Below, piece after piece: positions 3,425 through 35,409 of a DNA stretch of 36,454 bases. The stretch comes from a virus. The notes below the pieces were generated by a model. The model did not search any database, was not told where the DNA came from, and saw only the letters and a program-made list of their open reading frames with translations. Position 1 is the stretch's first letter. The number at the start of each line of letters is the position of its first letter. The stretch covers positions 17,014 to 53,467 of the IMG/VR virus record IMGVR_UViG_3300030099_006671; one strand, given 5' to 3'. The translations under genes and the position numbers were made by a program.

Positions 3425-4089
3425 TGGCAATAACTTATACAAATTTTTTGACTCAAGTTAGAAACTACACTGAAGTGGACAGTAATGTTTTATCTGACAC
3501 ATTAATTGATCAATTTATTAGAAACACAGAATTAGATATAGCAGGTAAGGTTGATTATGATGACCTTAGAAAATATGCAACATCTAATTTCACTGCGGGG
3601 AACCGTTATGTAAGTTTGCCGGGAGATCTTTTGATAATAAGATCAGTACAAGTCATAGACGGAGGCACAAGAGTTTTTTTAGAAAAAAGAGATACTAGTT
3701 TTATTTCAGAGTTTAATCCTAGTGAGGCACAGGGGACACCAAAATATTACGCTAATTGGGAGGACAATGTACAAACTGGAGCAGTTATCCTTGTAGCTCC
3801 AAACCCTGCTACGGCTGCAACTGTTCAAATAAATTATATTAAAGATCCACCTCATTTTGACAGCTCAACAAATACTTTTTTATCAACTCATCAAGAAGCT
3901 TTGTTACTATATGGTGTCCTTGTAGAGTGTTATGGTTTCTTAAAAGGGCCTGCTGATCTTTACAACCTATACAGACAAAGGTATGATGAGAGTATGCAAG
4001 CTTTTGCTGTTCAACAAATGGGCAGAAGAAGAAGAGGCGAATTTGAAGATGGAGTTCCTAGACTTAAAGTAGAATCTCCATCACCATAA
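3424..4089 (+). CDS. Second head-tail adaptor-like protein (SU10 adaptor type)
   Basis: 221 residues. The order of elements matches phage adaptor proteins of the SU10 type: an N-terminal helical part (YTNFLTQVRNYTEVD, then LIDQFIRNTELDIAGKVDYD), a beta core (YVSLPGDLLIIRSVQVI, AVILVAPNPATAATVQINYI) and a C-terminal helix (EALLLYGVLVECYGFLKG) ending in a basic segment (MGRRRRGEFEDG). Such proteins form a dodecameric ring between portal and tail. Together with 2292-2987 it gives two adaptor-like proteins in this phage, possibly one stacked on the other. Starts in a TAATG overlap. A search against adaptor profiles would settle which ring each forms. Confidence 0.75.
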   Translation: MAITYTNFLTQVRNYTEVDSNVLSDTLIDQFIRNTELDIAGKVDYDDLRKYATSNFTAGNRYVSLPGDLLIIRSVQVIDGGTRVFLEKRDTSFISEFNPSEAQGTPKYYANWEDNVQTGAVILVAPNPATAATVQINYIKDPPHFDSSTNTFLSTHQEALLLYGVLVECYGFLKGPADLYNLYRQRYDESMQAFAVQQMGRRRRGEFEDGVPRLKVESPSP

Positions 4090-4108
4090 ATTTTTATAAG
4101 GAGATAAA

Positions 4109-4546
4109 ATGGCTATAACAACTAATGCAATATGCAACACTTTTAAAAAAGAACTTTTAGAAGCAAAGCACAATTTTAGTAACCCAGGCGGAAATACATT
4201 TAAATTAGCAATGTACACTAACTCGGCTACTTTAGGAAAATCAACAACATCTTTCACTACCGGTAATGAGGTAAGTTCACCTTCTGGTTACTCATCAGGT
4301 GGAAAAGCTCTTGTTAATACTGGAACATCTTTAGCAACAAATACAGCAATAACAGATTTTGCTGATTTGTCTTTTGTAGGAGTTACACTTACTGCAAGGG
4401 GTGCATTGATTTACAATGACTCAGCAACTGGAGATCCAGGTGTGGCGGTGTTAGATTTTGGCGGTGACAAAACTGCAACTTCAGGAACTTTTACTATTCA
4501 GTTCCCAGCGTTTACAACGAGTGCAGCAATATTGAGAATCGCATAA
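4109..4546 (+). CDS. Small beta-rich virion protein
   Basis: 145 residues preceded by a clear ribosome-binding site (AAGGAG, about eight bases before ATG). The N-terminal helix NTFKKELLEAKHNF is followed by a Ser/Thr/Gly-rich beta region with FKLAMYT, ARGALIYNDS, VAVLDFGGDKTATSGTF and a final AAILRIA. This layout is common to a small structural protein of marine podoviruses and siphoviruses. It is probably a tail or fibre-attachment component: the next two genes are fibre-like. The family has no defined function that I know of. Confidence 0.75.
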   Translation: MAITTNAICNTFKKELLEAKHNFSNPGGNTFKLAMYTNSATLGKSTTSFTTGNEVSSPSGYSSGGKALVNTGTSLATNTAITDFADLSFVGVTLTARGALIYNDSATGDPGVAVLDFGGDKTATSGTFTIQFPAFTTSAAILRIA

Positions 4547-4563: not shown

Positions 4564-5547
4564 GTGGCAGATATTACTGTAATCGTAAACGCACCTGGCA
4601 TTCCAACCACGTGGGGCGAAAAAACTTGGGGCGATGCTTCATGGGGTCAGCAAACAGGATTAGTAACAGACACAGGCACAGCTACAACCGTAGCCAACGC
4701 AAACGTTAATCCAACAGGCATAGCAGCGGGGACAAGCGTTGGACAGATAGACATAGACATAGGTGTAACAGTAGTTGTAAGTGGTATATCAGCTACAACT
4801 TCTATAGGGGATGAATCAATAGCTTTAGGCAGGCAGCAAGACGTAACAGGAATTTCACTTTCAACATCAATAGGATCAGTTTCTATAGAACCAACTCAAC
4901 TAATAGGCACGGGCTGGGGAAGAAGAACCTGGGGTAATTTAGCTTGGGGTGATGCTTTTTCTGCACAAGCCGTAGGTCAAGCTCTTAGTGCATCTCAAGG
5001 AACTGTAACTCCTGTTACTGATGTAAGCATATCAGTTTCTGGTTTTGATCTATTAACTATTACACAAGGAATAAGTTCTTTAAAAATCGATCAGGATATA
5101 ACTGTTTTCGCTTCTGAAGATCAATTAGATACTGCGATTGGTTCTACATCTCAAACTGGATTGGCTAACGTTAACGCTTCAGGTAATTCTGCTTCATCAA
5201 GTGTTGGTCAGGTAATACCTGAACCTAAAATTCCAGTTGATGTTGTAGGAGTGGGAATGACAGCTTCATTGGGAACAATCTCACTTGTTCAAACAACAAA
5301 TGAGTCTGTAACAACGGCTGGATTATTAACAGGCTCACTAGGGTCTATCACACCGGTGTCAGTTTATAGTGTAACTGGTCAAGCCTTAGCTAGTTCTATT
5401 GGATCAGTAGCAGTTACTGGAACTGGAAATATACCTTTAACAGGCATAGGCTTGACAGCAAATATTGGCTCAGTTAATGTAACTTCATGGCAAGAGATTG
5501 ATCCTGGTGTAAATAATATATGGACGGAAGTTGATCTTGCAGCATAA
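4564..5547 (+). CDS. Repeat-containing tail/fibre protein with WG modules
   Basis: 327 residues starting with GTG; AAAGGAGG at 4551-4558 decides this start. Two tryptophan modules, TWGEKTWGDASWGQQ (near residue 16) and GWGRRTWGNLAWGDA (near residue 117), frame a series of short beta repeats of the form G-x-x-L-x-x-S-x-G-S-V (VTGISLSTSIGSVSI, VTGQALASSIGSVAVTG, LTGIGLTANIGSVNVTS and others). This looks like a beta-solenoid or fibrous virion protein exposed on the tail. It contains no Cys and is rich in Thr/Ser/Gly. The C-terminus contains further Trp residues (SWQEIDPG, IWTEVDLAA). Role as a receptor-facing or fibre-linking protein is inferred from repeats and neighbours. Confidence 0.75.
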   Translation: MADITVIVNAPGIPTTWGEKTWGDASWGQQTGLVTDTGTATTVANANVNPTGIAAGTSVGQIDIDIGVTVVVSGISATTSIGDESIALGRQQDVTGISLSTSIGSVSIEPTQLIGTGWGRRTWGNLAWGDAFSAQAVGQALSASQGTVTPVTDVSISVSGFDLLTITQGISSLKIDQDITVFASEDQLDTAIGSTSQTGLANVNASGNSASSSVGQVIPEPKIPVDVVGVGMTASLGTISLVQTTNESVTTAGLLTGSLGSITPVSVYSVTGQALASSIGSVAVTGTGNIPLTGIGLTANIGSVNVTSWQEIDPGVNNIWTEVDLAA

Positions 5548-5568: not shown

Positions 5569-6897
5569 ATGGCATCAAGTTTTTCTACAGATTTAAAATT
5601 AGAATTAATGGCTACTGGCGAAAACGCTGGTACTTGGGGTGATAAAACTAACACAAATTTAAATTTAGTACAACAAGCTATTGCAGGCTTTGAACAAGTT
5701 ACGCTGTCTTCAGGTGGAACTTTAGCACTTGCAATGTCAGACGGTGCTTTATCAAATGCAAGAAATTTAGTAATTAAATTTGCAACTGCAACAATTGGTG
5801 CAAGCACAATTTGCACTATACCTGATAGTATTGAAAAATTTTATATATTTGATTGCACAGGTTTAACGAACCCTACTAACTTAACTATTAAGACAGCTTC
5901 AGGAACAGGTTTCTCTCCAGATAGAGCGGCAATCTTTGCTGCCTATGCAGACGGCACAAATTTGAATGAAGTATCATTAGATACTTTAGGCGGAACCGTA
6001 GCTGCTGCACAGATAGCTTCAGATGCTGTAACAACAGCTAAAATTTTACAGTCAAATGTTACACAAAATAAAATGGCACCAAACGCCATCGGAACAGCAC
6101 AAATTATACAATCTAATGTCACATTAAATAAAATGGCTCCTAACTCAGTGGGCCCAGCACAATTACAATCTACTGCAGTGACAGCTGGATCTTACACTAC
6201 AGCCGACATTACTGTTGACGAAGACGGAAGAATTACTGCTGCATCAACAGGCTCAGCAGGGGCGCCTGATTATTTTTACACTTTTGCTGACGCTGGAAAC
6301 GTAACAGGCACTTACAATGCTCAACCAGGTACAACTAAACTTGGAGTTTATCTTTGTGGAGGAGGCGGATCTGGAGCGTCAGGTAACAACCCGGTAGGTG
6401 CAGGACCAGGAGGTTCAGCAGGTATAGGATTTTTTAGCATACCTGTAAGTTCACCAGCACCTTCACCGTTTTCAGCACCTTACACGTTAGGAGCAGGAGC
6501 TACAGGACAACAAAATAGAGAGGGACAAGCTGGTCAAAGTTCAACTTTTGGAAATCCAGTACAAGCCACTGCTACAGGCGGAGGAGCCGGACCGAAAGTT
6601 CCACAAGCACCACAAGATCCTTCTATACCAAGAGGTGGAAATAATGGTACAGCTCCAGGAGCGACTATAGATTTAACTGTAACTTCAGGTCATCAAAATT
6701 CGCCTGACACTCCTTCGCAAGCTTCACAAGTAGCTGCAAAATATGCTTCTGCAGGTTTTGTATTATCAAATGATCCTACTAATTCTCCAGTGATATTTGG
6801 AATGGGTGGATCTAGTGCAAAACATCCAAACGCTCAAACACCAGGTGGTCCAGGTAATCCAGGGGCAATTAAAATTTTTGAAAACTTTATTAGTTAA
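5569..6897 (+). CDS. Tail fibre protein with glycine-rich tip
   Basis: 442 residues, AGGAG upstream of ATG. The N-terminus (FSTDLKLELMATGENAGTWG, then DKTNTNLNLVQQAI) is the virion-anchoring region seen at the start of many marine phage fibre proteins. Residues 161-180 and 181-200 are a direct repeat built on QSNVT-NKMAPN, a short shaft-like repeat. Residues 205-230 have the turn motif ITVDEDGRITAAS. From about residue 260 the chain is very Gly/Pro-rich (GGGGSGASGNNPVGAGPGG), typical of polyglycine-type fibre tips. It probably contacts the host receptor. The gene is followed after two bases by a small gene that may be its assembly partner. Confidence 0.82.
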   Translation: MASSFSTDLKLELMATGENAGTWGDKTNTNLNLVQQAIAGFEQVTLSSGGTLALAMSDGALSNARNLVIKFATATIGASTICTIPDSIEKFYIFDCTGLTNPTNLTIKTASGTGFSPDRAAIFAAYADGTNLNEVSLDTLGGTVAAAQIASDAVTTAKILQSNVTQNKMAPNAIGTAQIIQSNVTLNKMAPNSVGPAQLQSTAVTAGSYTTADITVDEDGRITAASTGSAGAPDYFYTFADAGNVTGTYNAQPGTTKLGVYLCGGGGSGASGNNPVGAGPGGSAGIGFFSIPVSSPAPSPFSAPYTLGAGATGQQNREGQAGQSSTFGNPVQATATGGGAGPKVPQAPQDPSIPRGGNNGTAPGATIDLTVTSGHQNSPDTPSQASQVAAKYASAGFVLSNDPTNSPVIFGMGGSSAKHPNAQTPGGPGNPGAIKIFENFIS

Positions 6898-6899
6898 TT

Positions 6900-7370
6900 A
6901 TGGCTTATTTACTTTTTAATGAACATAACGAGTTACAACAAATCGCTAAAGAGGAAAACGATTTTAATGTAACTAGAGGTAACCTTGATCATTATAAAGG
7001 TCTAGGTAAGCTTAAGACTGTTTCTGCAGATGATTACAAAGCTATTGTTGCAGGTGAAAAAAAAGCTACACTTACAGACGACAATGTAGTTTTAACAGAT
7101 GTGGCTGATAGAGTTTTTTCATATGATCAGGAAGGTTTTCAAATTGCAGTTAATGAACAATTAGAATTAGTGAATAATTTTTTAGAAACATGGGCAGGAA
7201 AATTAGATACCTCTGATTTTTCAGGTCTTAAAACAAGAATTAATAACTACAAATCAGGTCTAGAAAATATTAACATTTCATCTATAAGTTTCCCAATAAC
7301 AACAGATTTCTTTAGATATTGGTATGACAATCAATCTTCAGAACCTTTTCCAAGCGGTTATTTACATTAA
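6900..7370 (+). CDS. Protein next to tail fibre, possible fibre chaperone
   Basis: 156 residues, starting two bases after the fibre stop. It begins MAYLLFNEHNELQQIA and is mainly helical and acidic (VNEQLELVNNFLETWAGKLD), ending in a Trp/Tyr/Pro-rich segment (FFRYWYDNQSSEPFPSGYLH). Small helical proteins directly after a fibre gene are often fibre assembly or capping proteins. Here that role rests on position only. I recall similar short proteins after fibre genes in marine phages but not a named family. Confidence 0.72.
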   Translation: MAYLLFNEHNELQQIAKEENDFNVTRGNLDHYKGLGKLKTVSADDYKAIVAGEKKATLTDDNVVLTDVADRVFSYDQEGFQIAVNEQLELVNNFLETWAGKLDTSDFSGLKTRINNYKSGLENINISSISFPITTDFFRYWYDNQSSEPFPSGYLH

Positions 7371-7377
7371 ATCAGAA

Positions 7378-7396
7378 ATATTGTAAAAGACAATAT
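7378..7396 (+). promoter_or_regulatory. Hairpin covering the start of the first oxygenase gene
   Basis: ATATTGT (7378-7384) and ACAATAT (7390-7396) are perfect inverted repeats with a five-base loop. The second arm includes the first two bases of the ATG at 7395, so in RNA the start codon would be partly paired. No clear Shine-Dalgarno precedes this gene. It may hold translation down, but seven A/U-rich pairs are weak. Confidence 0.35.
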
Positions 7397-7958
7397 GTCA
7401 TTGAAAGATTACATAAGAGTCTATCCTCTTATAAAAGATCCTGTAATTTTAAGTAAACTTATAAGATTTTTGAATAAAGCCTATGCAACAAATATGTTTG
7501 AACAGGGGGGTTTAGGAAAAGTTAATCATCAAGATAAAAAAATAAGAGACGTTAATATTTTAGGATTAAATAATTTAAGTAATTCATTAAGTATCGTTCA
7601 TTGGGCAAATTTTTTAGGTCATTTTATTTTACAAGGTGCAAAAAAATATATTGATGAGTTTCCAAGAATCGCTCAAGCTACAATATTTGACATGCAAGCC
7701 TTAAGATATGGTTTAGGTGGTCACTATGATTTTCATGTAGATGACGGTCCAGGTTTTAATAGAAAACTAAGTTCTATCCTAATTTTAAACAATGATTATG
7801 AAGGTGGTGAGCTTTGTTTTGATATTGATGGAAAAATAGAAAAAATAAAAAACACTCCTGGTAATATAATTATTTGGCCAAGTAATTTTATGTTCCCACA
7901 TGCAGTGCAACCTCTTAAAAAAGGGACAAGGTATTCAATAGTTTCATGGATGAATTAA
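7395..7958 (+). CDS. 2-oxoglutarate/Fe(II) oxygenase, prolyl-4-hydroxylase type
   Basis: 187 residues with a double-stranded beta-helix core. Iron ligands: H114 and D116 in YDFHVDDG, and H169 in FPHAVQP; R179 (KKGTRYS) is placed to bind the 2-oxoglutarate C5 carboxylate. The intervening KLSSILILNNDYEGGEL is the usual strand-turn signature of P4H-like enzymes, and GNIIIWPSNFMFPHAV is the distal strand. These enzymes hydroxylate an amino acid, nucleotide or small molecule using O2 and 2-oxoglutarate; the substrate here is unknown. All catalytic residues are present, so it should be active. It overlaps the next oxygenase gene by 13 bases. Confidence 0.85.
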   Translation: MSLKDYIRVYPLIKDPVILSKLIRFLNKAYATNMFEQGGLGKVNHQDKKIRDVNILGLNNLSNSLSIVHWANFLGHFILQGAKKYIDEFPRIAQATIFDMQALRYGLGGHYDFHVDDGPGFNRKLSSILILNNDYEGGELCFDIDGKIEKIKNTPGNIIIWPSNFMFPHAVQPLKKGTRYSIVSWMN

Positions 7959-8491
7959 AAAAAGGTTATAAAGTAATAAAAAATTTTCTCTCTAAAGAAG
8001 AGGTGGATCTTCTTACACATTACACAAGAATGAGACATAGAACTAATTTTGATTCTTTTGATTTGAACCAAAATAATCAAGGTGATACTATGTACTATGG
8101 AGATCCTGCCACAGACTCTGTCTTAATTAGTAAAATTAAATTAATGGAAAAAGAAACTGGTCTAGAACTTTTACCAACTTATTCTTTTTGGAGGATGTAT
8201 ACTTATACAGCTGATTTAAAAAAACATAAAGATAGACCAGCTTGTGAAATTAGTGTGACTGTAAAAATAAATTCATGCGGTGTGGCATGGCCTATATTTA
8301 TTGAGGGTAAGAAAATTGATCTTGAGAATGGTGATGGTTTAATTTACAAAGGTTGCGAAAACTTCCATTGGCGTGAAGAATTTAAGGGTGATTGGCACTC
8401 TCAGGTTTTTTTACATTATGTTAATAAAAATGGTCCTAATAAAGAATGGTACAAAGATAAAAGACAATTATTTGGAGTTTTAAAAAATTAA
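7946..8491 (+). CDS. Second 2OG/Fe(II) oxygenase-like protein
   Basis: 181 residues, starting within the previous gene. H94-K95-D96 in LKKHKDRPACEIS is the HxD iron motif, and WPIFIEGKKIDLENGDGLIY forms the central strands. The distal His is probably H141 in ENFHWREEF; the following GDWHSQVFLHYV is the last strand. No Arg occurs at the usual place after the distal His, so 2-oxoglutarate may be held by another residue (R143, H151 or Q153 are candidates). The sequence type (GDGLIYKGCENFHWRE) is one I recall from marine phage and bacterial oxygenases of unknown substrate. Clearly distinct from its neighbour rather than a recent duplicate. Confidence 0.78.
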   Translation: MDELKKGYKVIKNFLSKEEVDLLTHYTRMRHRTNFDSFDLNQNNQGDTMYYGDPATDSVLISKIKLMEKETGLELLPTYSFWRMYTYTADLKKHKDRPACEISVTVKINSCGVAWPIFIEGKKIDLENGDGLIYKGCENFHWREEFKGDWHSQVFLHYVNKNGPNKEWYKDKRQLFGVLKN

Positions 8492-8715
8492 TGATTATAA
8501 AACAAAATAAAAAAGACGGAACGGCTGAAATTATTTTTTCATGGAAGGAAATATGGACATTGATAAAAAAAAGAAAATTGCAGTTTACAGCTGAAAGTTT
8601 TAAACATTTAACTAATAATTTTATAAAAATTATTATGGAATTTAATGAAAATTTTGAAGATAATTTACAAAGAAAAACTACTCATTCAAATCACGTTAAG
8701 ATAAAAAATGATTAA
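8491..8715 (+). CDS. Small hypothetical protein between oxygenase genes
   Basis: 74 residues, starting in a one-base overlap with the preceding stop and ending inside the next gene. It begins MIIKQNKKDGTAEIIFSWKE and is amphipathic helical afterwards (AESFKHLTNNFIKIIMEFNENF). No signal or transmembrane segment. I recall short proteins of this type in pelagiphage genomes but no function. Its coupling to oxygenases on both sides suggests co-expression. Confidence 0.68.
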   Translation: MIIKQNKKDGTAEIIFSWKEIWTLIKKRKLQFTAESFKHLTNNFIKIIMEFNENFEDNLQRKTTHSNHVKIKND

Positions 8716-9241
8716 AGAGGAAAACAAAATTATTGAAAGAGACATTGCTAGAAGAGCTTTTCTTTTTGAAATCATAACAGAAGTAGACGCAGAATCTTTG
8801 ATATCTGATATAAATAATTTTATTAAAGAAAAAAATCTTAATTACACAACAAATGTAAAAGGTGGAATGACAGATTGGTATGCTTTTAATAATCATGAAA
8901 AATTTTTAAATATATTAAATGAGGGTTGTACTTACTTAGGTAAGTATGCAAATTTTAATAAGGCAGCTCTCAAAGAGGCTTGGGGTATAAAAATAGAAAA
9001 AGGAGATTATACAGAAAAACATAATCATGCCGCTTCTGTAATGTCTGGTATATTATATTTAAATGATGTTGATCAAAACTTAATTTTTCCCGATTTAAGG
9101 ATTTCAGTAAAACCCAGAAAAGGTACGTTTTTACTCTTTTCACCTTGGTTGGACCATATGACAGACGTAAATAAAACAGAGACGACTAAATACGCCATCC
9201 CTTTTAATTTTATGGAATATAAACATAAAGATTGGTCTTAA
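8708..9241 (+). CDS. 2OG/Fe(II) oxygenase of the 2OG-FeII_Oxy_5 type
   Basis: 177 residues. The core reads WGIKIEKGDYTEKHNHAASV, then SGILYLND: this is the H-x-H form (H105, H107) typical of the PF13759-like group, where the second His replaces Asp. D129 in FPDLRI and H150 in SPWLDHMTDV follow; K161 (TTKYAIPFNF) occupies the place where an Arg usually binds 2-oxoglutarate. The N-terminal half is helical and may recognise the substrate. It is the third oxygenase in a row after the tail fibre genes and the last gene before the nozzle gene. Substrate unknown. Confidence 0.8.
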   Translation: MIKEENKIIERDIARRAFLFEIITEVDAESLISDINNFIKEKNLNYTTNVKGGMTDWYAFNNHEKFLNILNEGCTYLGKYANFNKAALKEAWGIKIEKGDYTEKHNHAASVMSGILYLNDVDQNLIFPDLRISVKPRKGTFLLFSPWLDHMTDVNKTETTKYAIPFNFMEYKHKDWS

Positions 9242-9265
9242 GATATTTATTACTTATTGAGGTAA

Positions 9266-9274
9266 TGATATAAT
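9266..9274 (+). promoter_or_regulatory. Extended -10-like element before the nozzle gene
   Basis: TGATATAAT (extended -10, TGnTATAAT) ends five bases before the ATG at 9280, and no ribosome-binding site lies at normal distance. A start of transcription about seven bases downstream would coincide with the ATG, giving a leaderless message. The same arrangement is found at 11984-11992. No good -35 is seen, which is tolerated by extended -10 promoters. Confidence 0.45.
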
Positions 9275-9279
9275 CAATT

Positions 9280-11457
9280 ATGCCATTAGCAAAAGTAAAA
9301 ATAGCACCAGGATTTGACAAACAATCTACTCCAGCTGACGCGGAAGGTCGATGGGTGGATGGTGATAATGTTAGATTTCGATACGGAGAGCCTGAAAAAA
9401 TAGGTGGTTGGTCAGCCTTAGTTAATAAACAATTAGTTGGTGCCGCTAGAGCACAACACGTTTGGGCGAATACTGCTGGTAAAAGATACGCTGCCATAGG
9501 GACTAACAAAGTTTTAATAATTTATTTTGATGGTGCCTTTTATGATATTACCCCTTTAGATACTGATAATTTTCAAACTGGGTCAGATATTACGACAACC
9601 AACGGGTCAGCCACAGTGACTATAACAACATCTAACGCACACAATTTGTTAGTCGGTAATATAGTAACTTTTGCAAACGCTGGTTCTTTTACAGGAGCAA
9701 ACACAGATTACACCGCAACAGATTTTGATGATAAACTTTTTGAAATTCAATCTGTTCCTACAACTACCACTTTTACAATCACAATGCCCTCTTCAGAGTC
9801 GAAATCAGGAGTGACTAACGATGGCACCCTAGACGTAAGGCCTTATGTGGTAGTTGGTCCTTTGTCTGAAACGGCTGGTTATGGATGGGGAACATATTTT
9901 TTTGGTGGACAACCAGTTGCTTCAACTACAACCACAATGAACAATGGGGGTGCCATGTTAGTAGGTGCATCATCTGTTGTTTTGACTAACTCTTCATTAT
10001 TTCCTGCTTCAGGAAAAATTAGAATTGGATCTGAAGATATGGAATACACAACAAACACCACTGGCACTAACACTATTAGCGGAATCACAAGAGGAATAAA
10101 TGGCACAACTCCTGCAGAGCATGCAAACGGATCAACAGTCACCGACATTACAGAATTTGTAGGATGGGGTGACGCTTCATCTACAACTTCTGTTACAATA
10201 GAACCTGGTAACTGGTCTTTAGATAATTTTGGAAATATTTTAATAGCCACAGTGCACAATGGTGAAACTTTTACTTGGGATGCATCACTAGGCACTGCTT
10301 TACAAACAAGAGCAACCATTGGAACTGGCATGCCAACACAATCTGTGATGTCTATTGTGTCAGACAGGGATAGACATCTATTTCATTTAGGAACACAATC
10401 GACGATAGGTTCAAGTCCACAAGATAAAATGTTTATAAGATTTTCTGATCAAGAAAGCATTAGTGTATATGAACCTACGTCAACAAACACTGCAGGAACA
10501 TTCAGATTAGATGACGGCACTAGAATTGTTGGAGCTTTTAAAGGAAAAGATTATATTTTAGTTTTAACAGACACTGCTACATATGAAATGCAATTTGTTG
10601 GTCCTCCTTTTACGTTTTCAATTAGGAAGGTAGGATCTAATAATGGTTTAATAGGCCAACACGCTGGAGTGTTTGCAAACGGAGCAGTTTATTGGATGGG
10701 TAAAACTGGAGGATTTTATGTTTATGACGGAACCGTTAAATCTATTCCATGTCTAGTAGAGGACTTTGTTTTTACAACGACAGGCAACAACCCTGGCATA
10801 AATTACAATTCTGGCCAAATAATTTATGGAGGAATAAATGAACTTTATTCAGAAATAAATTGGTTTTATCCTACAGCCAATTCTTCTATAATTGACAGAG
10901 TAGTGACTTACAATTATGCAGAAAATGTTTGGACGACAGGCACTCTGGACAGAACAACTTGGGTTGGTTCCACAGTTTACGAACAGCCTTACGCTACTGA
11001 TTTTAATGAATCTAATACTCCTACTTTTCCTGTTGTAAATGGCGTATCTAATGGAGCAACGATTTACTACGAACATGAAGCTGGACTTAATCAATTAAAT
11101 GGAGATGGAACTGAAACAGCCATAACTTCTTTTATAAAATCTGGAGAGTTTGATTTAAATGGAAGACAAGGTGTGCCTGGCGATGGGGAATTTATAATGA
11201 GTATAAAAAGATTTTTACCTGATTTTAAACGTATAAGTGGAAATGCAAAAATAACAATTTTTTTAAATCAATTTCCACAAGGAACTACCGCTTCTTCTAG
11301 TCCTTTAGGACCATTTACTTTAAGCTCAACGACATCTAAAGTTGATACAAGGGCAAGGGCAAGATTAGTAGCTGTTCAGGTTGAGAATGAAGGTTTGAAT
11401 GAAAGCTGGAGGTATGGGTCTTTTAGATTTGATATAAGACCTGACGGTAGAAGATAG
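9280..11457 (+). CDS. Tail nozzle / stabilisation protein (P22 gp10 / T7 gp12-like)
   Basis: 725 residues, the second largest protein here. The N-terminus (APGFDKQSTPADAEGRWVDG, then DNVRFRYGEPEKIGGW) is the signature of the P22 gp10-like tail hub family, a beta-propeller ring that forms the distal nozzle of short tails. The middle has an insertion rich in Thr (residues about 100-185 and 205-290: GSATVTITTSNAHNLLVGN, GKIRIGSEDMEYTTN) resembling two small inserted beta domains. The propeller resumes with NFGNILIATVHNGETFTWD, DRDRHLFHLG and WMGKTGGFYVYDGTVK. The C-terminus (ARARLVAVQVENEGLNESWR, then YGSFRFDIRPDGRR) is family-typical. TAGTG joins it to the next gene. Confidence 0.87.
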   Translation: MPLAKVKIAPGFDKQSTPADAEGRWVDGDNVRFRYGEPEKIGGWSALVNKQLVGAARAQHVWANTAGKRYAAIGTNKVLIIYFDGAFYDITPLDTDNFQTGSDITTTNGSATVTITTSNAHNLLVGNIVTFANAGSFTGANTDYTATDFDDKLFEIQSVPTTTTFTITMPSSESKSGVTNDGTLDVRPYVVVGPLSETAGYGWGTYFFGGQPVASTTTTMNNGGAMLVGASSVVLTNSSLFPASGKIRIGSEDMEYTTNTTGTNTISGITRGINGTTPAEHANGSTVTDITEFVGWGDASSTTSVTIEPGNWSLDNFGNILIATVHNGETFTWDASLGTALQTRATIGTGMPTQSVMSIVSDRDRHLFHLGTQSTIGSSPQDKMFIRFSDQESISVYEPTSTNTAGTFRLDDGTRIVGAFKGKDYILVLTDTATYEMQFVGPPFTFSIRKVGSNNGLIGQHAGVFANGAVYWMGKTGGFYVYDGTVKSIPCLVEDFVFTTTGNNPGINYNSGQIIYGGINELYSEINWFYPTANSSIIDRVVTYNYAENVWTTGTLDRTTWVGSTVYEQPYATDFNESNTPTFPVVNGVSNGATIYYEHEAGLNQLNGDGTETAITSFIKSGEFDLNGRQGVPGDGEFIMSIKRFLPDFKRISGNAKITIFLNQFPQGTTASSSPLGPFTLSSTTSKVDTRARARLVAVQVENEGLNESWRYGSFRFDIRPDGRR

Positions 11458-11978
11458 TGATCTATAATTTATTTAGCACACCTATTTTTTATGGTGATAT
11501 CGATTCTAAAAAAATTGAGTTTGAGAAACAAAATGAATTTATACCCTCTTGGATGAGTAGAGCTCAGTCAACGAAATCACATAATTTTGTTAATGCTTTA
11601 AAAAACGAATCAAAAATTTATTTATTAAAAAAAATAAGTGAATTGATGAGCGAAAAATTTACAGGTTTTGAAGTAGATTTAATAAATATTTGGACAAATA
11701 AATACAAAAATAATGATTATCAAGAACCACATATTCATCCTAAATCTCATTTTAGTTTTATAATTTATTCTAAGGTTCAAGAAAGTAAAACATATTTTTT
11801 AGCACCAAACGATTATTTAGTAGAATCTTTTGGAATGGAATCAATTTACAAAACAAAAGATTTTTTAAGATTTAAAAATAACAGCATAGTAATATTTCCA
11901 AGTTTTTTACCTCACGGTGTTCAACCCTCTGAGAATCAAGAAACTATTGCAGGAAATCTTTTATTTAAACAACATTAA
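11457..11978 (+). CDS. 2OG-oxygenase fold protein lacking the usual 2OG-binding Arg
   Basis: 173 residues, GTG start overlapping the nozzle stop by one base. It begins MIYNLFSTPIFYGDID, the usual opening of PF13759-type oxygenases. Iron ligands are H92 and H94 in QEPHIHPKSHFSF and H153 in FPSFLPHGVQPSE. The residue expected to anchor 2-oxoglutarate (Arg of the RxSxxxN strand) is not there: the strand reads QETIAGNLLF. Either another residue does this job, a different cosubstrate is used, or the enzyme is inactive. It is separated from the next oxygenase by two small genes. Confidence 0.76.
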   Translation: MIYNLFSTPIFYGDIDSKKIEFEKQNEFIPSWMSRAQSTKSHNFVNALKNESKIYLLKKISELMSEKFTGFEVDLINIWTNKYKNNDYQEPHIHPKSHFSFIIYSKVQESKTYFLAPNDYLVESFGMESIYKTKDFLRFKNNSIVIFPSFLPHGVQPSENQETIAGNLLFKQH

Positions 11979-11983
11979 CATTA

Positions 11984-11992
11984 TGATATACT
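11984..11992 (+). promoter_or_regulatory. Extended -10-like element before a 54-residue gene
   Basis: TGATATACT stands five bases before the ATG at 11998, in the same position and context as TGATATAAT before 9280 (15 of 18 bases through the ATG agree). There is no Shine-Dalgarno. A leaderless transcript start is a reasonable reading. Confidence 0.42.
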
Positions 11993-11997
11993 AATTT

Positions 11998-12162
11998 ATG
12001 GCTAAAATAACTATACAGATACCAGAACCTAAATCGGAGTACTCACAAGAAGATCAAAGACAAATACTTCAAGCATTTAGAACTTTACAGTCTCAGTTGA
12101 ATTTTTCATATGAGAATGATATAAAAAACAAACAAGACGCATTTAATTATTTTTTATCATGA
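11998..12162 (+). CDS. Small conserved phage protein, 54 residues
   Basis: ATG at 11998, stop TGA at 12160-12162 overlapping the next start (ATGA). The product begins MAKITIQIPEPKSEYSQEDQ, continues RQILQAFRTLQSQLNFSYEN and ends in a short polar helix. The opening beta strand plus Pro-rich turn and the LRTLQ-like helix match a small protein I remember beside nozzle genes in marine podoviruses. It is probably a small virion or tail-associated protein. The tight overlap with the following gene supports it being translated. Confidence 0.68.
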   Translation: MAKITIQIPEPKSEYSQEDQRQILQAFRTLQSQLNFSYENDIKNKQDAFNYFLS

Positions 12163-12509
12163 CAATACAATATCAAAATCAAGGTTACAAACAATCAGGC
12201 ACAGGTAAAACTACTGTTTTAACATGTCCCTCTAATGCAACGATAATAATTAAGAGTATTTATGTTGCTAACAACGATGGCTCATCAGCTATTCTAGTTA
12301 ATATGAACTTAGTAGATTCATCTGATTCTGGTGCTGAATATGAATTTTTTAGAAGTGACGTTGCAGCTAAGTCTCAAGTCAATGCGGCGCCACAAGGTTT
12401 AAATCTAGAAGCAGGTGACTCAGTCACAGTGCAAGCGGCGACGAGTGGCAATAAGATTCAAGGAGCTATAAGTTTTGCATTAATAGATAGATCTCAAGAA
12501 AATGGATAA
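12159..12509 (+). CDS. Small beta-rich virion protein
   Basis: 116 residues beginning MTIQYQNQGYKQSGTGKTTV. Predicted to be almost all beta strand: ATIIIKSIYVANNDGSSAIL, then VNMNLVDSSDSG and a final GNKIQGAISFALIDRSQ. The central phrase LNLEAGDSVTVQA is typical of small beta-sandwich decoration or collar proteins of phages. No catalytic motif. It is coupled by ATGA to the preceding small gene and overlaps the next oxygenase gene by eight bases. Confidence 0.73.
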   Translation: MTIQYQNQGYKQSGTGKTTVLTCPSNATIIIKSIYVANNDGSSAILVNMNLVDSSDSGAEYEFFRSDVAAKSQVNAAPQGLNLEAGDSVTVQAATSGNKIQGAISFALIDRSQENG

Positions 12510-13026
12510 GCGTAAGATTGAAGTTTTTGATAATTTTTTGAACCCAGAAAATTTTGTCAAAATTCAAAATGAAGTCTTAGACTCAGAATTTCCATGGGGT
12601 TATAACGATGACATATGTGGACATAATGAGGAACAGGATAAATTAGATAATTGTATGTTTGTACACAGTGTGTATAAATCGCAACCTAAATTTTATATAA
12701 GTCCACTTTTTAATACACTTACACCTCTTTTAAATAAATTAAATATAGACTCATTGTGTAGAATAAAGATTAATTTAAATTTACGCACTGAAAGTCATAT
12801 AGAACATTGTTATCACGTGGATCACAAAGATGTAAATTTTTATAGTGCAATTTTTTATTTAAACGATAATAATGGTGGTACAAATATTGAGGGTCAGCCT
12901 TTTATAAAGAGTGTTGCAAATAGGTTAATAATTTTTCCCTCTAACGTTGCTCACACCGGTGTAACACAGACTAATACAAAAAGAAGGGTAGTTATAAATA
13001 TTATTTATACAAAACATAATGGCTAA
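12502..13026 (+). CDS. 2OG/Fe(II) oxygenase, P4H type
   Basis: 174 residues. Iron ligands H105 and D107 in CYHVDHKDVNFYSAIF and H151 in FPSNVAHTGVTQ; R161 or R162 (TNTKRRVVINIIY) is placed for 2-oxoglutarate binding. YLNDNNGGTNIEGQPF is the usual P4H turn. The N-terminus (RKIEVFDNFLNPENFVKIQN) is the helical start of the fold. All residues for activity are present. It starts inside the previous small virion gene and its end overlaps the start of a 44-residue basic protein by eight bases. Substrate unknown. Confidence 0.84.
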   Translation: MDKRKIEVFDNFLNPENFVKIQNEVLDSEFPWGYNDDICGHNEEQDKLDNCMFVHSVYKSQPKFYISPLFNTLTPLLNKLNIDSLCRIKINLNLRTESHIEHCYHVDHKDVNFYSAIFYLNDNNGGTNIEGQPFIKSVANRLIIFPSNVAHTGVTQTNTKRRVVINIIYTKHNG

Positions 13027-13153
13027 AAAGAAACCTCTATTTGGAGTAAACAATTATCATAAACGCACACCAAAAAAGCGTCCGGGTGTTCATACCAAAA
13101 GAAAGAACAAAAGAAAACCACATCGTAAGAAAAGTCGTGGACAAGGACGTTAA
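13019..13153 (+). CDS. Very small, extremely basic conserved phage protein
   Basis: 44 residues: starts MAKKKPLFGVNNYHKRTPKK, continues RPGVHTKRKNKRKPHRKK and ends SRGQGR. Nearly half the residues are Lys, Arg or His. I recall near-identical small proteins (opening MAKKKPLFGVNNYHKR and ending RGQGR) in many marine phages, including cyanophages. Binding to nucleic acid is likely from charge alone; its place among tail genes could mean it is packed in the virion. It starts eight bases before the oxygenase stop. Confidence 0.72.
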   Translation: MAKKKPLFGVNNYHKRTPKKRPGVHTKRKNKRKPHRKKSRGQGR

Positions 13154-13172
13154 ATTACTATATTAAAAAAAA

Positions 13173-13349
13173 ATGACTGTTTATCAAAAAATTAAATGTG
13201 AGACTAAAACCATTTACAGAAGTAAAAAAACTGGACAAAAATATAAAACTAAAGAAGACTTTTTATCTAAACATACACAAGAAGATCTAGCTACAGATGT
13301 TGAAGTTATGGTGCCTGATTTGCCAATATTTACTAAAACAAAAAAATGA
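13173..13349 (+). CDS. Small hypothetical protein, 58 residues
   Basis: Begins MTVYQKIKCETKTIYRSKKT, continues GQKYKTKEDFLSKHTQEDLA and ends in VEVMVPDLPIFTKTKK. Its stop overlaps the next ATG (ATGA), which supports it as real. The acidic C-terminal DLPIF resembles a partner-binding tail but that is a guess. No known family. An A/T-only stretch (ATATTAAAAAAAAATG) precedes the start instead of a ribosome-binding site. Confidence 0.62.
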   Translation: MTVYQKIKCETKTIYRSKKTGQKYKTKEDFLSKHTQEDLATDVEVMVPDLPIFTKTKK

Positions 13350-13864
13350 ATTTAAAAAACGTAGATTTTTTACAAAATGAAAATTTAAATCAGGTAAAGG
13401 TTTTTAAAAATATACTTGATATTAAAAATGATTTTAATTTTAATGATATATTAAATCTTATTCAATATAGTTACTTTCAAAATAGTCCAAAATATCCAAA
13501 ACATACAGGAATAAATATTAACGACATTTTTAGTCATACCTTTCAAATATTTGATGTAAGAGAATCAGAAAAATTAAATGAGCTGCATAAACAATTTAGT
13601 GTTTTATTTAAAAAGGGCATAAACGATGAAAAATTTAGACCGGATATTTTTTTTTCTTTTAGGTCATCTACTGGGCCATTGCACGCAGACGAATGTAACG
13701 TTTTTATAATTGGTCTTGAAGGCACGACCTTTTACGATATTCCATCATTAAAAAAAATTTATGAAGTTAATAAAACTGATGCAATATTTATACCAGCAAA
13801 GATTACTCACGCTGCTACATCAATACAAAAAAGAATAATTTGTTCATGGAGTATATTTAATTAA
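13346..13864 (+). CDS. Cupin / 2OG-oxygenase-like double-stranded beta-helix protein
   Basis: 172 residues. The C-terminal half carries SSTGPLHADECNVFIIGLEG, with H113 and D115 as an HxD pair, and IPAKITHAATSIQKRIICSW, with H155 as distal ligand and R163 eight residues on. This is the pattern of a JmjC/cupin-like oxygenase. The N-terminal half is helical and Asn-rich (NFNDILNLIQYSYF). The usual EGGE turn of P4H enzymes is missing, so it is a separate subfamily from its neighbours. It is coupled to the glycosyltransferase that follows (TAATG), suggesting linked function or expression. Confidence 0.7.
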   Translation: MNLKNVDFLQNENLNQVKVFKNILDIKNDFNFNDILNLIQYSYFQNSPKYPKHTGININDIFSHTFQIFDVRESEKLNELHKQFSVLFKKGINDEKFRPDIFFSFRSSTGPLHADECNVFIIGLEGTTFYDIPSLKKIYEVNKTDAIFIPAKITHAATSIQKRIICSWSIFN

Positions 13865-14796
13865 TGAGCCCATTAGGAGGAACAGAATTACAGTACAAAT
13901 TTTTACAAGATAATATTGATAAGTCTTTATTAGATAAATTTCAAATATGTTTATCAGTGCCTGGTAGAGTTCCCTTATCAAAAAATAAAATCAATATTCT
14001 TTGGCAAAAAATGGCTCCTGATCAACCACACTTTCAAGAATTTTTTAGAGATAAAAAACAAATAGAACAATATGACTATTATGTATTTAATAGTCATTGG
14101 AATTATGAACAATTTAGAAAAACATTTCAAATACCTCATGAAAAATGCACTGTTATTAAAAACGGAATAACTAATATAAAACAAAGAGATGTAGAAAAAA
14201 AGAGGGATAAAATAAAATTAATATACCATCCTACTCCATGGAGGGGTTTATCTGTCTTACTTGGAGCTATGCAATTAGTAAAAAATAACAATATAGAATT
14301 AGATGTTTATAGTAGCACCAAAGTGTATGGTTCTGATTTCGAAAAACAAAATGATGGTTTATATCAAGGACTCTATGATCAGGCTAAAATTTTACCAAAT
14401 GTTAATTATATAGGTTATAAACCTAATCAATATATTTTAGATAATCTTCACAATTATGATGCTTTTGTTTATCCAAATATATGGGAGGAAACGTTTTGTA
14501 TTTCAGCACTAGAATCATTGGCTTGTGGTTTGTTTGTGGTAACGACAGATAATGGTGCTCTTTATGAAACCTGTTCGGAGTTTCCTGTCTACATTCCTAT
14601 GGACACTAATTTAAAAAATTTAGCTATTCAATTTGCTGCAGTTATTGATGGTTTACCGAGTCAACTAAATAGTCCGGGTTGTCATAATCATCTAAGATTT
14701 CAACAAAACTTCTATAATCATTTTTATAATTGGAAAAATATCGCTGGACAGTGGGAGAATTTTTTAAAGGGAGCAGTACATGCAAGATCCAAGTAA
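13864..14796 (+). CDS. Glycosyltransferase, GT-B fold (GT4-like)
   Basis: 310 residues. It opens at once with SPLGGTELQYKF, the GGTE loop normally found after the first strand, so the protein has a shortened N-terminus. PTPWRGLSVLLGAMQLV (residues 124-140) is the donor-site start of the second domain, and EETFCISALESLACG (208-222) is the E-x7-E motif (E209, E217) that binds the sugar nucleotide. Such enzymes move a hexose from NDP-sugar to an acceptor. It follows a cupin-like oxygenase gene and precedes another glycosyltransferase. The acceptor could be a virion protein, a hydroxylated residue, or host surface sugar; the sequence does not tell. Confidence 0.85.
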   Translation: MSPLGGTELQYKFLQDNIDKSLLDKFQICLSVPGRVPLSKNKINILWQKMAPDQPHFQEFFRDKKQIEQYDYYVFNSHWNYEQFRKTFQIPHEKCTVIKNGITNIKQRDVEKKRDKIKLIYHPTPWRGLSVLLGAMQLVKNNNIELDVYSSTKVYGSDFEKQNDGLYQGLYDQAKILPNVNYIGYKPNQYILDNLHNYDAFVYPNIWEETFCISALESLACGLFVVTTDNGALYETCSEFPVYIPMDTNLKNLAIQFAAVIDGLPSQLNSPGCHNHLRFQQNFYNHFYNWKNIAGQWENFLKGAVHARSK

Positions 14797-15604
14797 ACCA
14801 ATTTGGTTTAATAAAACTATAGAACCAAAGAAAGAGATAAAATCTGAAAAAAACTTTTCTATATTTGTTGCAACACCTTGTCATAGCGAAGTGTCAATTC
14901 ATTATTTTCAGGCATGTTTAGATTTTCAAAAGCAGTGTATGAAAAATAATGTATTAGTTTCTTTTCAAATAATGAAGTCATCTCTAGTAACTCAAGGTCG
15001 AAATTTATGTGTTTCAAGTTTTATGGAGAGTGAACACTCACATTTACTATTTATAGATTCTGACATAGATTTTCAAGCGGCATCAATTTTTAAAATGATC
15101 GCAGCAGATAAAGGTGTGATATCAGTTCCCTATCCATTAAAAGATTTTAACTGGGATAAAGGTTGGGATAGAATACAAGCAGGTGAAATAAAAAGTGCAA
15201 AGGATTTAAAATTTAAGGGGTTTTATAGATATCCAATGAAGGTCGAGCACGAAGATAATATTAAAGTTGATGATGGGTGTATAGAGGTAACACACTCTCC
15301 AACTGGGTGTATGTTAATTAAAAGAGCAACTATAGAAAAAATGATCAAAGCTTATCCTGAAATGGAGATAGAACAAAAAACTATTATTAATGGTCAAATG
15401 ATAAATAGACCTTATTATTATAATCTTTTTGATACTCAGTTTGATCCTGAGAAAAAGACTTATATGGGAGAGGATTTTGCCTTTTGTAAAAGATGGAAAG
15501 ATATAGGTGGCAAATGCTATGCTTTAGTCACAGATAGAATATCACATGTAGGAGAACATCAGTATAGAGGCTGTTTTGCTGATGAGTTGATCAAAACTAA
15601 GTAA
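14780..15604 (+). CDS. GT-A-type glycosyltransferase-like protein
   Basis: 274 residues; GGGAG upstream of ATG at 14780, inside the previous gene. After a short extension, FSIFVATPCHSEVSIHYFQA begins the nucleotide-binding fold; HLLFIDSDIDFQA (residues 89-100) contains the D-x-D metal/sugar-nucleotide motif (D93, D95). Later come TGCMLIKRATIEKM, a GED triad (230-232, YMGEDFAFCKRWKDIGG) and HVGEHQYRG (256-264). That series is familiar from phage and viral glycosyltransferases of GT2-like type. It should use an NDP-sugar with a divalent metal. Adjacent to a GT-B enzyme, it may extend a glycan begun by the other. Confidence 0.8.
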   Translation: MQDPSKPIWFNKTIEPKKEIKSEKNFSIFVATPCHSEVSIHYFQACLDFQKQCMKNNVLVSFQIMKSSLVTQGRNLCVSSFMESEHSHLLFIDSDIDFQAASIFKMIAADKGVISVPYPLKDFNWDKGWDRIQAGEIKSAKDLKFKGFYRYPMKVEHEDNIKVDDGCIEVTHSPTGCMLIKRATIEKMIKAYPEMEIEQKTIINGQMINRPYYYNLFDTQFDPEKKTYMGEDFAFCKRWKDIGGKCYALVTDRISHVGEHQYRGCFADELIKTK

Positions 15605-34821: not shown

Positions 34822-35409
34822 ATGATTAAACCCTTTGAAACCGAATTTCCTTTAAATACCTTTATTGGAGCCTGGTATATTAACCCTTTAATATGTGATC
34901 AATTGATCAATTATTGTGAAGAAAACCCTCATGCAAAGAGAGAAGTTTCTTATTCTCATGAAGGAGTATTACATAAAAAATCAACTGAATGGTGTGTAAA
35001 ATCAACAGACTATCATGTGCCTATAAAATATTACATTGATTCTTTAAAATTAGTTTTAGATAATTACGCAAAAAGATGGGAGTTTGCAGCAAAGACAGCG
35101 AGATTCGGTTTACTTGAGAATTTTAATATTCAACACTACGGTGTTGGTGAAGGTTTTTACGAGTGGCATTTTGAAAAAACTTATAAACAAAGGTACGAAC
35201 TTTTTCGACATTTAGTTTTTATGACTTATCTCAATGACGTGCCTGATGGTGGCACTGAATTTTATTATCAGGGTATTTCTACTCCTGCTAGAAAAGGACT
35301 TACTTTGATATGGCCTTCTACTTGGACACATACTCATAGAGGTATTATTTCTAAAACTCAGGAGAAAAAAATAATTACTGGCTGGCTGTCATTCGAGGAC
35401 CGAGGCTAG
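34822..35409 (+). CDS. 2OG/Fe(II) oxygenase with HxE motif
   Basis: 195 residues. The core: FNIQHYGVGEGFYEWHFEKT, with H116-F-E118 in place of HxD; then YLNDVPDGGTEFYYQGISTP (the GGTEF turn); GLTLIWPSTWTHTHRGIISK with H172 as distal ligand; and KKIITGWLSF with K182/K183 where Arg usually binds 2-oxoglutarate. A Lys there occurs in some P4H-like enzymes, and HxE is a known but less common variant. The type is familiar from cyanophages and marine phages. Unlike the others it stands alone, 13 kb or more from the tail genes, between a terminator and the terminase region. The gene may have its own control. Confidence 0.83.
   Translation: MIKPFETEFPLNTFIGAWYINPLICDQLINYCEENPHAKREVSYSHEGVLHKKSTEWCVKSTDYHVPIKYYIDSLKLVLDNYAKRWEFAAKTARFGLLENFNIQHYGVGEGFYEWHFEKTYKQRYELFRHLVFMTYLNDVPDGGTEFYYQGISTPARKGLTLIWPSTWTHTHRGIISKTQEKKIITGWLSFEDRG

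Follow-up and report, generated by a model that had tools for sequence, protein, structure and literature searches.

Fibre tips of HTVC023P-type pelagiphages are exchanged together with a P4H-like gene and a prolyl-hydroxylase-fold gene labelled "ferrochelatase"

The SAR11 hosts of pelagiphages are the ocean's most abundant bacteria, and few kinds of "auxiliary metabolic gene" are as common in marine phages as those for 2-oxoglutarate (2OG)-Fe(II) oxygenases. Host-range modules made of a fibre tip and a dedicated chaperone are well known from T4 (gp37/gp38) and Mu (S/U). That HTVC023P-type pelagiphages carry many 2OG oxygenases is already published, Wittmers et al. (2022) having described eight non-orthologous 2OG-Fe(II) genes near one another with a "ferrochelatase" always adjacent to an oxygenase, and having built on that name to read the partner gene as heme metabolism (PMC9599517). 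T4-GC 615 of Sullivan et al. (2010), a cyanophage gene of ~530-730 bases, was listed as "Hyp. with ferrochetalase domain", and a 2024 time series from the Western English Channel used the phrog2954 "ferrochelatase" as a seasonal marker (PMC11561400). The roles proposed so far for cyanophage 2OG oxygenases are DNA repair or 2OG/nitrogen metabolism, and a link to fibres was not drawn in either source (PMC3037559, PMC9602691); the Phold paper reported EGLN-like structures to be common in marine phages and left ferrochelatase unmentioned (PMC12774648). Here, we analysed a stretch of 36,454 bases (the window), positions 17014-53467 of the 56,371-base viral record IMGVR_UViG_3300030099_006671, in which a gene resembling prolyl 4-hydroxylases (P4H) and a "ferrochelatase" gene stand between the tail fibre and the nozzle. 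We describe the two as part of a cassette that is exchanged together with the fibre tip, and we assign the "ferrochelatase" to the prolyl-hydroxylase fold; both the cassette and the relabelling appear to be new.

The genome is a 56-kb relative of pelagiphage HTVC023P, with which the window agrees in gene order around the nozzle, and its nozzle shares 46-57% identity with the nozzles of two cultured SAR11 phages, HTVC027P and HTVC023P, and with that of the assembled 023Pt_psg01 (psg01). With the nozzle protein as a backbone marker, we retrieved 80 IMG/VR loci. Co-variation was assessed by Mantel tests on pairwise protein distances in the 70 deduplicated loci having the P4H, the 7946-type gene and the nozzle (genes and gene types are named here by their start in the window), with p-values lying at the floor set by the permutation count (0.002). 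The genes on which the main result rests, with r denoting the Mantel correlation, are as follows.

4564-5547, + strand: repeat virion protein (Rep); backbone; r 0.69 with the fibre N-terminus and 0.64 with the nozzle
5569-6228, + strand: fibre N-terminal stem, about the first 220 residues of the 442-residue fibre; backbone
6448-6897, + strand: fibre C-terminal Gly-rich tip, last ~150 residues; Gly_rich_2 (PF21722); start of the cassette
6900-7370, + strand: P156, a 156-residue hypervariable protein directly after the fibre; cassette
7395-7958, + strand: O1, the P4H-like 2OG-Fe(II) oxygenase; PF13640 with H114, D116, H169 and R179; cassette
7946-8491, + strand: O2, prolyl-hydroxylase-fold protein labelled "ferrochelatase"; phrog_2954, structure model, H94/D96/H141; cassette partner of the P4H
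8491-8715, + strand: 74-residue protein; cassette; r 0.75 with P4H and 0.61 with O2
9280-11457, + strand: nozzle/stabilization protein; phrog_3287, E 9e-83; backbone marker
13864-14796, + strand: GT1, GT4-type glycosyltransferase; PF00534 (Glycos_transf_1); backbone
14780-15604, + strand: GT2, putative GT-A glycosyltransferase; phrog_1574, E 4e-36; DxD and ED motifs

These genes fell into two groups. P156, the P4H, O2 and the 74-residue protein co-varied at pairwise r of 0.61-0.80 (P156 with P4H 0.80, with the 74-residue protein 0.77 and with O2 0.69; P4H with O2 0.68), and the fibre tip was joined to them more loosely (0.45 with P156, 0.44 with P4H, 0.26 with O2). In the backbone group the correlations were 0.92 for nozzle and GT1, 0.85 for GT1 and GT2, 0.69 for repeat protein and stem and 0.64 for nozzle and stem, whereas across the two groups they were low (nozzle with P4H 0.15, with O2 0.11 and with the tip 0.06; tip with GT1 -0.07). 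The exchange breakpoint lies inside the fibre gene, between a stem with a mean pairwise distance of 0.30 and a tip with one of 0.70, the two being correlated with each other at only 0.07; for P156 the mean distance was 0.80. Individual pairs of loci show the replacement directly. Between L048 and L050 the nozzles are 93% and the fibre stems 92% identical, but the tips only 42%, P156 25%, and P4H and O2 39% each, with high DNA identity breaking off within the fibre gene and returning at the nozzle; L035 and L095 likewise have nozzles 99% and P4H 34% identical. The converse was found for L045 and L025, which share P4H at 95%, O2 at 98%, the 74-residue protein at 96%, P156 at 85% and the tip at 77%, with the nozzle at 77%. 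Metagenomic contigs may include assembly chimeras; many independent pairs nonetheless agree. Based on these data, we concluded with high confidence that the tip, P156, the P4H, O2 and the 74-residue protein form an exchangeable cassette beside a separate backbone.

The P4H matched PF13640 at 63.7 bits (cut-off 27; E 3e-17 in Pfam), and its matches among PDB sequences were PiuC and Egl nine homologue 1. Its active site (H, D/E, H, R/K, either residue being accepted at the second and fourth positions) was intact in 70 of 70 loci at a mean P4H identity of 38%, suggesting that selection preserves the function of the enzyme although the remainder of the protein diverges. When the order of genes between fibre and nozzle was tallied over 49 distinct loci, a P4H-like gene (of the 7395 or 34822 type) was followed directly by a 7946-type gene in 40. 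From its conserved residues, the P4H is predicted to be an active Fe(II)/2OG hydroxylase.

The published label of its partner is another matter. O2 matches phrog_2954 at E 8e-50, PHROGs 2954 and 3531 carry the name ferrochelatase, and HTVC023P and many cyanophage records annotate the 7946-type gene in the same way. O2 itself had no Pfam match, ferrochelatase models matched 0 of 46 O2 homologues at E<=1 in Pfam and none in NCBIfam, and a search of PDB sequences with an O2 profile found no ferrochelatase. The AlphaFold2 model of O2 (mean pLDDT 95) was closest in Foldseek to protein prolyl hydroxylases: the Pseudomonas putida P4H (also solved bound to EF-Tu), PHD2 and the chlorella virus collagen hydroxylase vCPH (E ~8e-9 to 1e-7, probability 1.00, TM 0.65-0.70 over a double-stranded beta-helix). 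The 50 matches listed were all oxygenases, prolyl hydroxylases nearly throughout, and no chelatase fold was among them. H94, D96 and H141 were invariant in 18 of 18 phage homologues, from pelagiphages to cyanomyoviruses, and the HxD...H site was retained in 65 of 70 cassette loci. We concluded that the 7946 gene almost certainly encodes a prolyl-hydroxylase fold and not a ferrochelatase; a literature search confined to open-access articles found neither an earlier correction of the label nor virion proteomics of HTVC023P-type phages. In L005, L024, L057, L118 and L143, 7946-type proteins have few or none of the metal ligands left and keep R143 or K143, and L005 and L118 hold a second 7946-type gene; such copies are possible pseudoenzyme subunits.

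The pair also adjoins fibre genes in several unrelated cyanomyoviruses, the P4H preceding the 7946-type gene in S-SM2 (where the neighbour is tail-fibre-like), S-MbCM6, P-RSM4 and S-CAM8. In pelagiphage HTVC033P one other oxygenase stands between the two, and in ACG-2014f they form a single protein of 362 residues (7946 type at 5-192, P4H at 184-362), a fusion suggesting that the two proteins act together. Relatives of P156 were not found in the cyanophage regions examined. In S-MbCM6 (L222, 606-2666), the tail fibre is separated from the P4H and "ferrochelatase" pair by three "sericin-like" genes, whose products are candidate substrates there. Synechococcus phage S-CREM1 (L216, 3032-8522) has nine consecutive oxygenase-type genes, one of them annotated JmjC and the last of the 7946 type, near a tryptophan halogenase gene.

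A preliminary description of the window had placed six oxygenase-fold genes among the tail genes and a seventh at 34822, and two glycosyltransferases after the sixth, and had taken the oxygenase-fold proteins to be mutually diverged. Open reading frames were present at every one of these coordinates, and Pfam searches, structure models and conserved metal sites agree with the assignments. The seven proteins barely detect one another (best pairwise BLASTP E 0.006), and the metal ligands are near-invariant within each family alignment. The oxygenase-fold genes beyond the cassette, and a small gene among them, are listed below.

8708-9241, + strand: O3, PF13759-type with a three-His HxH...H site; PF13759 at E 7e-12; optional gene
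11457-11978, + strand: O4, PF13759-type, HxH...H; PF13759 at E 2e-9; hot-spot gene
12159-12509, + strand: 116-residue small virion-type protein between hot-spot genes; weak match to the Ig-domain phrog_13745 only
12502-13026, + strand: O5, 2OG-Fe(II) oxygenase-like; phrog_274 at E 3e-43; PF13640 sub-threshold at E 9e-5
13346-13864, + strand: O6, JmjC/cupin-like putative hydroxylase; H113, D115, H155; rare hot-spot gene
34822-35409, + strand: O7, seventh oxygenase, PF13640, HxE variant; early/small-gene region outside the tail module

O3 and O4 scored 46 and 38 bits against PF13759 (cut-off 27 for both). H105, H107 and H150 occur in 99-100% of the 102 members of the O3 family, and H92, H94 and H153 are invariant in the 86 members of the O4 family; a carboxylate (HxD/E) was not found in the metal triad, HxH being present in 99-100% of these 188 members, so the two families have a three-histidine site and may only provisionally be called 2OG oxygenases. 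The O5 family has H105, D107 and R162 at 95-100% and takes in a "leprecan-like" (prolyl 3-hydroxylase-named) cyanophage protein (S-CAM8 SXCG_00041 and P-RSM4 PRSM4_054 are noted); the "DNA endonuclease V" label of phrog_274 is probably a second misannotation, given the HxD and Arg of the family and its weak PF13640 similarity. O6 itself matched JmjC_2 below the cut-off (E 0.033), JmjC_2 was matched by eight of eight family members, and the O6 model (pLDDT 75) was closest in Foldseek to YcfD (E 4.5e-6), followed by other JmjC and cupin proteins; the three ligands are invariant in its 14 members, which come from only 14 loci, and no relatives were found in annotated phages. O7 matched PF13640 at E 6e-9, with H116, E118 (D in most family members) and H172. 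The 116-residue protein was found in 148 loci, nearly all, and it follows neither the nozzle (r 0.21) nor GT1 (r 0.15), so that it may be exchanged on its own, as a third unit.

This genome has nine oxygenase-type genes, of which six lie in the tail module, one at 34822 and two, both of the 12502 type, outside the window at record positions 7156 and 15995. Among 15 genomes or long contigs with a nozzle gene, 59 of 79 oxygenase-fold genes lay in the tail interval, which makes up 24% of the length, and in HTVC023P, HTVC027P and psg01 all of them lay in or beside the tail module; other contigs, including this genome, hold some elsewhere. The nominal binomial value of 5e-21 overstates the clustering because the genomes are related and six of the seven seeds were taken from the tail module. 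As the preliminary description had expected, then, these genes are not scattered independently of tail genes in relatives, and their clustering with them is real, if not exclusive. Locus L018 (3979-9690) carries nine oxygenase-fold genes between fibre and nozzle, and L003 (2846-12401) ten in ~10 kb, one of them between GT1 and GT2.

The first of the two glycosyltransferases is clear, GT1 matching PF00534 at E 1.5e-13 and 51 bits (cut-off 26.4). For GT2 the evidence is weaker: D93 and D95 (D93-S-D95), E231 and D232 are invariant, and Anp1 is matched sub-threshold in 24 of 24 members, the window protein falling below the cut-off, so that it is probably a GT-A enzyme. GT2 follows GT1 in 64 of 64 cases. 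HTVC027P has a second GT2-like gene in its replication region, between primase and helicase (3493-4200; L181).

To account for these observations, we tentatively favour the explanation that the P4H and O2 serve the maturation of the fibre tip or P156 and are exchanged along with the tip. The backbone of repeat protein, fibre stem, nozzle and two glycosyltransferases evolves as a unit, and the cassette is replaced en bloc. With the help of O2, or in a complex with it, the P4H would hydroxylate side chains of either the fibre tip or P156 at assembly, in the oxygen-rich host; every tip type would travel with its own enzyme type, and tip and enzymes would have to match, as is the case for fibre tips and their dedicated chaperones. 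The remaining oxygenases near the glycosyltransferases are optional hot-spot genes, perhaps with other virion proteins as their targets. We infer three parts of this scheme: catalysis, a substrate in the virion, and any consequence for host range. Our confidence stops somewhat short of an even balance, since physical linkage could yield the same statistics without dependence of tip on enzyme, adjacent genes being open to joint exchange for reasons other than function. Linkage as the cause of the co-variation is a live alternative, although neighbours need not co-vary, as the stem and tip of one gene (r 0.07) and the 74-residue protein and the nozzle (r 0.26) demonstrate. The more general claim, that receptor-binding tips need hydroxylation by a cognate, co-inherited prolyl-hydroxylase pair as a maturase-coupled module, of which cyanophages would have a simpler form than pelagiphages, is possible but rather doubtful.

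Several further observations weigh against the maturation of tips by this pair. The fused form in ACG-2014f does not adjoin a fibre, and P-SSM7, S-P4 and S-CAM22 have a 7946-type gene without a P4H among replication genes, so members of this family can also occur away from tails. HTVC027P has no 7946-type gene, and its oxygenases are on the opposite strand (three in the tail slot, at 42092-43753, L082 8292-9953, run opposite to the tail genes). Five of the 70 pelagiphage 7946-type copies are without metal ligands. O2 has no 2OG-binding Arg ~9 residues past the distal His, a position that is variable (W, Y or other), while R143, Q153 and H157 are conserved, and its use of 2OG is therefore only likely. 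An [ST][FYW]P-type motif at the C-terminus of P156, considered as a prolyl-hydroxylation site, was present in 38 of 46 sequences and missing in eight whose loci keep the P4H, and it is therefore no obligatory target.

The oxygenases could instead be auxiliary metabolic genes whose products have host metabolites or proteins as substrates, with the fibre region merely a recombination hot spot. Their number and type do differ between loci (L018, for one, has nine in this region), some are located outside the tail module, and published surveys class them as metabolic genes (PMC9599517, PMC11561400). Passengers of a hot spot, however, should tend to disappear or to assort freely, whereas the pair fills one slot almost universally (40/49) and is type-matched to P156 and the tip, and we regard this alternative as unlikely. 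The preliminary description had proposed a single pathway in which the oxygenases make hydroxyls on a virion protein, or act on host surface sugars, and the two glycosyltransferases then add sugar, by analogy with collagen-like viral proteins. Both kinds of enzyme do stand in one cluster with overlapping genes, GT1 and GT2 are invariably paired, and the structural neighbours include the collagen hydroxylase of chlorella virus. The part of the proposal that gained from our data is the virion substrate, favoured by the co-variation with the fibre tip; the glycosyltransferases as its second step did not, because they track the nozzle (r 0.92) and not the tip (r -0.07), and because psg01 keeps four to five oxygenases and has neither glycosyltransferase. 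Nor is the pathway supported by the place of the 13346 gene before GT1, as that gene occurs in few loci and oxygenases are absent from the stretch between nozzle and GT1 in 26 of 81 loci, and no collagen-type target was found in the fibre, which has a Gly_rich_2 domain and no collagen-family match. The single pathway is thus weakened, possible in principle and in our estimate quite improbable; the glycosyltransferases may act separately, on a conserved target.

An alteration of host surface polysaccharide or lipid by glycosyltransferases and oxygenases, blocking superinfection, would fit the low-score likeness of GT1 to surface-polysaccharide and lipopolysaccharide glycosyltransferases, but it leaves the matching of P4H types to fibre-tip partners unexplained and the nearest folds act on proteins, and we consider it still less probable. 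An oxygenase and a glycosyltransferase together are also the known recipe for DNA hypermodification, by TET/JBP-like oxidation and then sugar transfer to DNA. Such genes were reported in these phages by Wittmers et al. (PMC9599517), but in Pfam and NCBIfam profile searches no protein matched the Tet_JBP family, and the genes are placed with tail genes and not with replication genes; the absence of a family match argues against this route, to which we attach hardly any weight. A role in defence was also considered, and the sole match, to a generic PADLOC "2OG" CRISPR-associated model, was read as superfamily similarity.

Preferring maturation of the fibre tip or P156 by the P4H and O2 has consequences for how these genes are read. 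The tie of a near-universal pair to an exchangeable fibre tip puts a concrete, testable proposal in place of a vague metabolic guess, and the relabelling removes a false clue, the phage "ferrochelatases" cited for heme and iron metabolism being hydroxylase-fold proteins. If the proposal is true, protein hydroxylation would join glycosylation as a means by which phages alter their receptor-binding parts.

Compared with the clusters of Wittmers et al. (PMC9599517), which come from the same phage group, the partner read there as heme metabolism has here a prolyl-hydroxylase fold, and the cluster is divided between a backbone and a cassette that contains the fibre tip. The multiple 2OG oxygenases of T4-like cyanophages (PMC3037559, PMC9602691) belong to the same families, with many per genome and with the P4H and "ferrochelatase" pair. 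Of the two enzymes, the 7395 protein shares the HxD...H...R site and sequence similarity with prolyl 4-hydroxylases such as the P. putida P4H, PHD2/EGLN and vCPH, while the 7946 protein shares their fold and HxD...H but differs in having no usual Arg and in its own R143, Q153 and H157. The module as a whole is like T4 gp37/gp38 and Mu S/U in that a variable tip is exchanged with adjacent small genes from a breakpoint inside the fibre gene, and unlike them in that the co-exchanged genes include two hydroxylase-fold enzymes.

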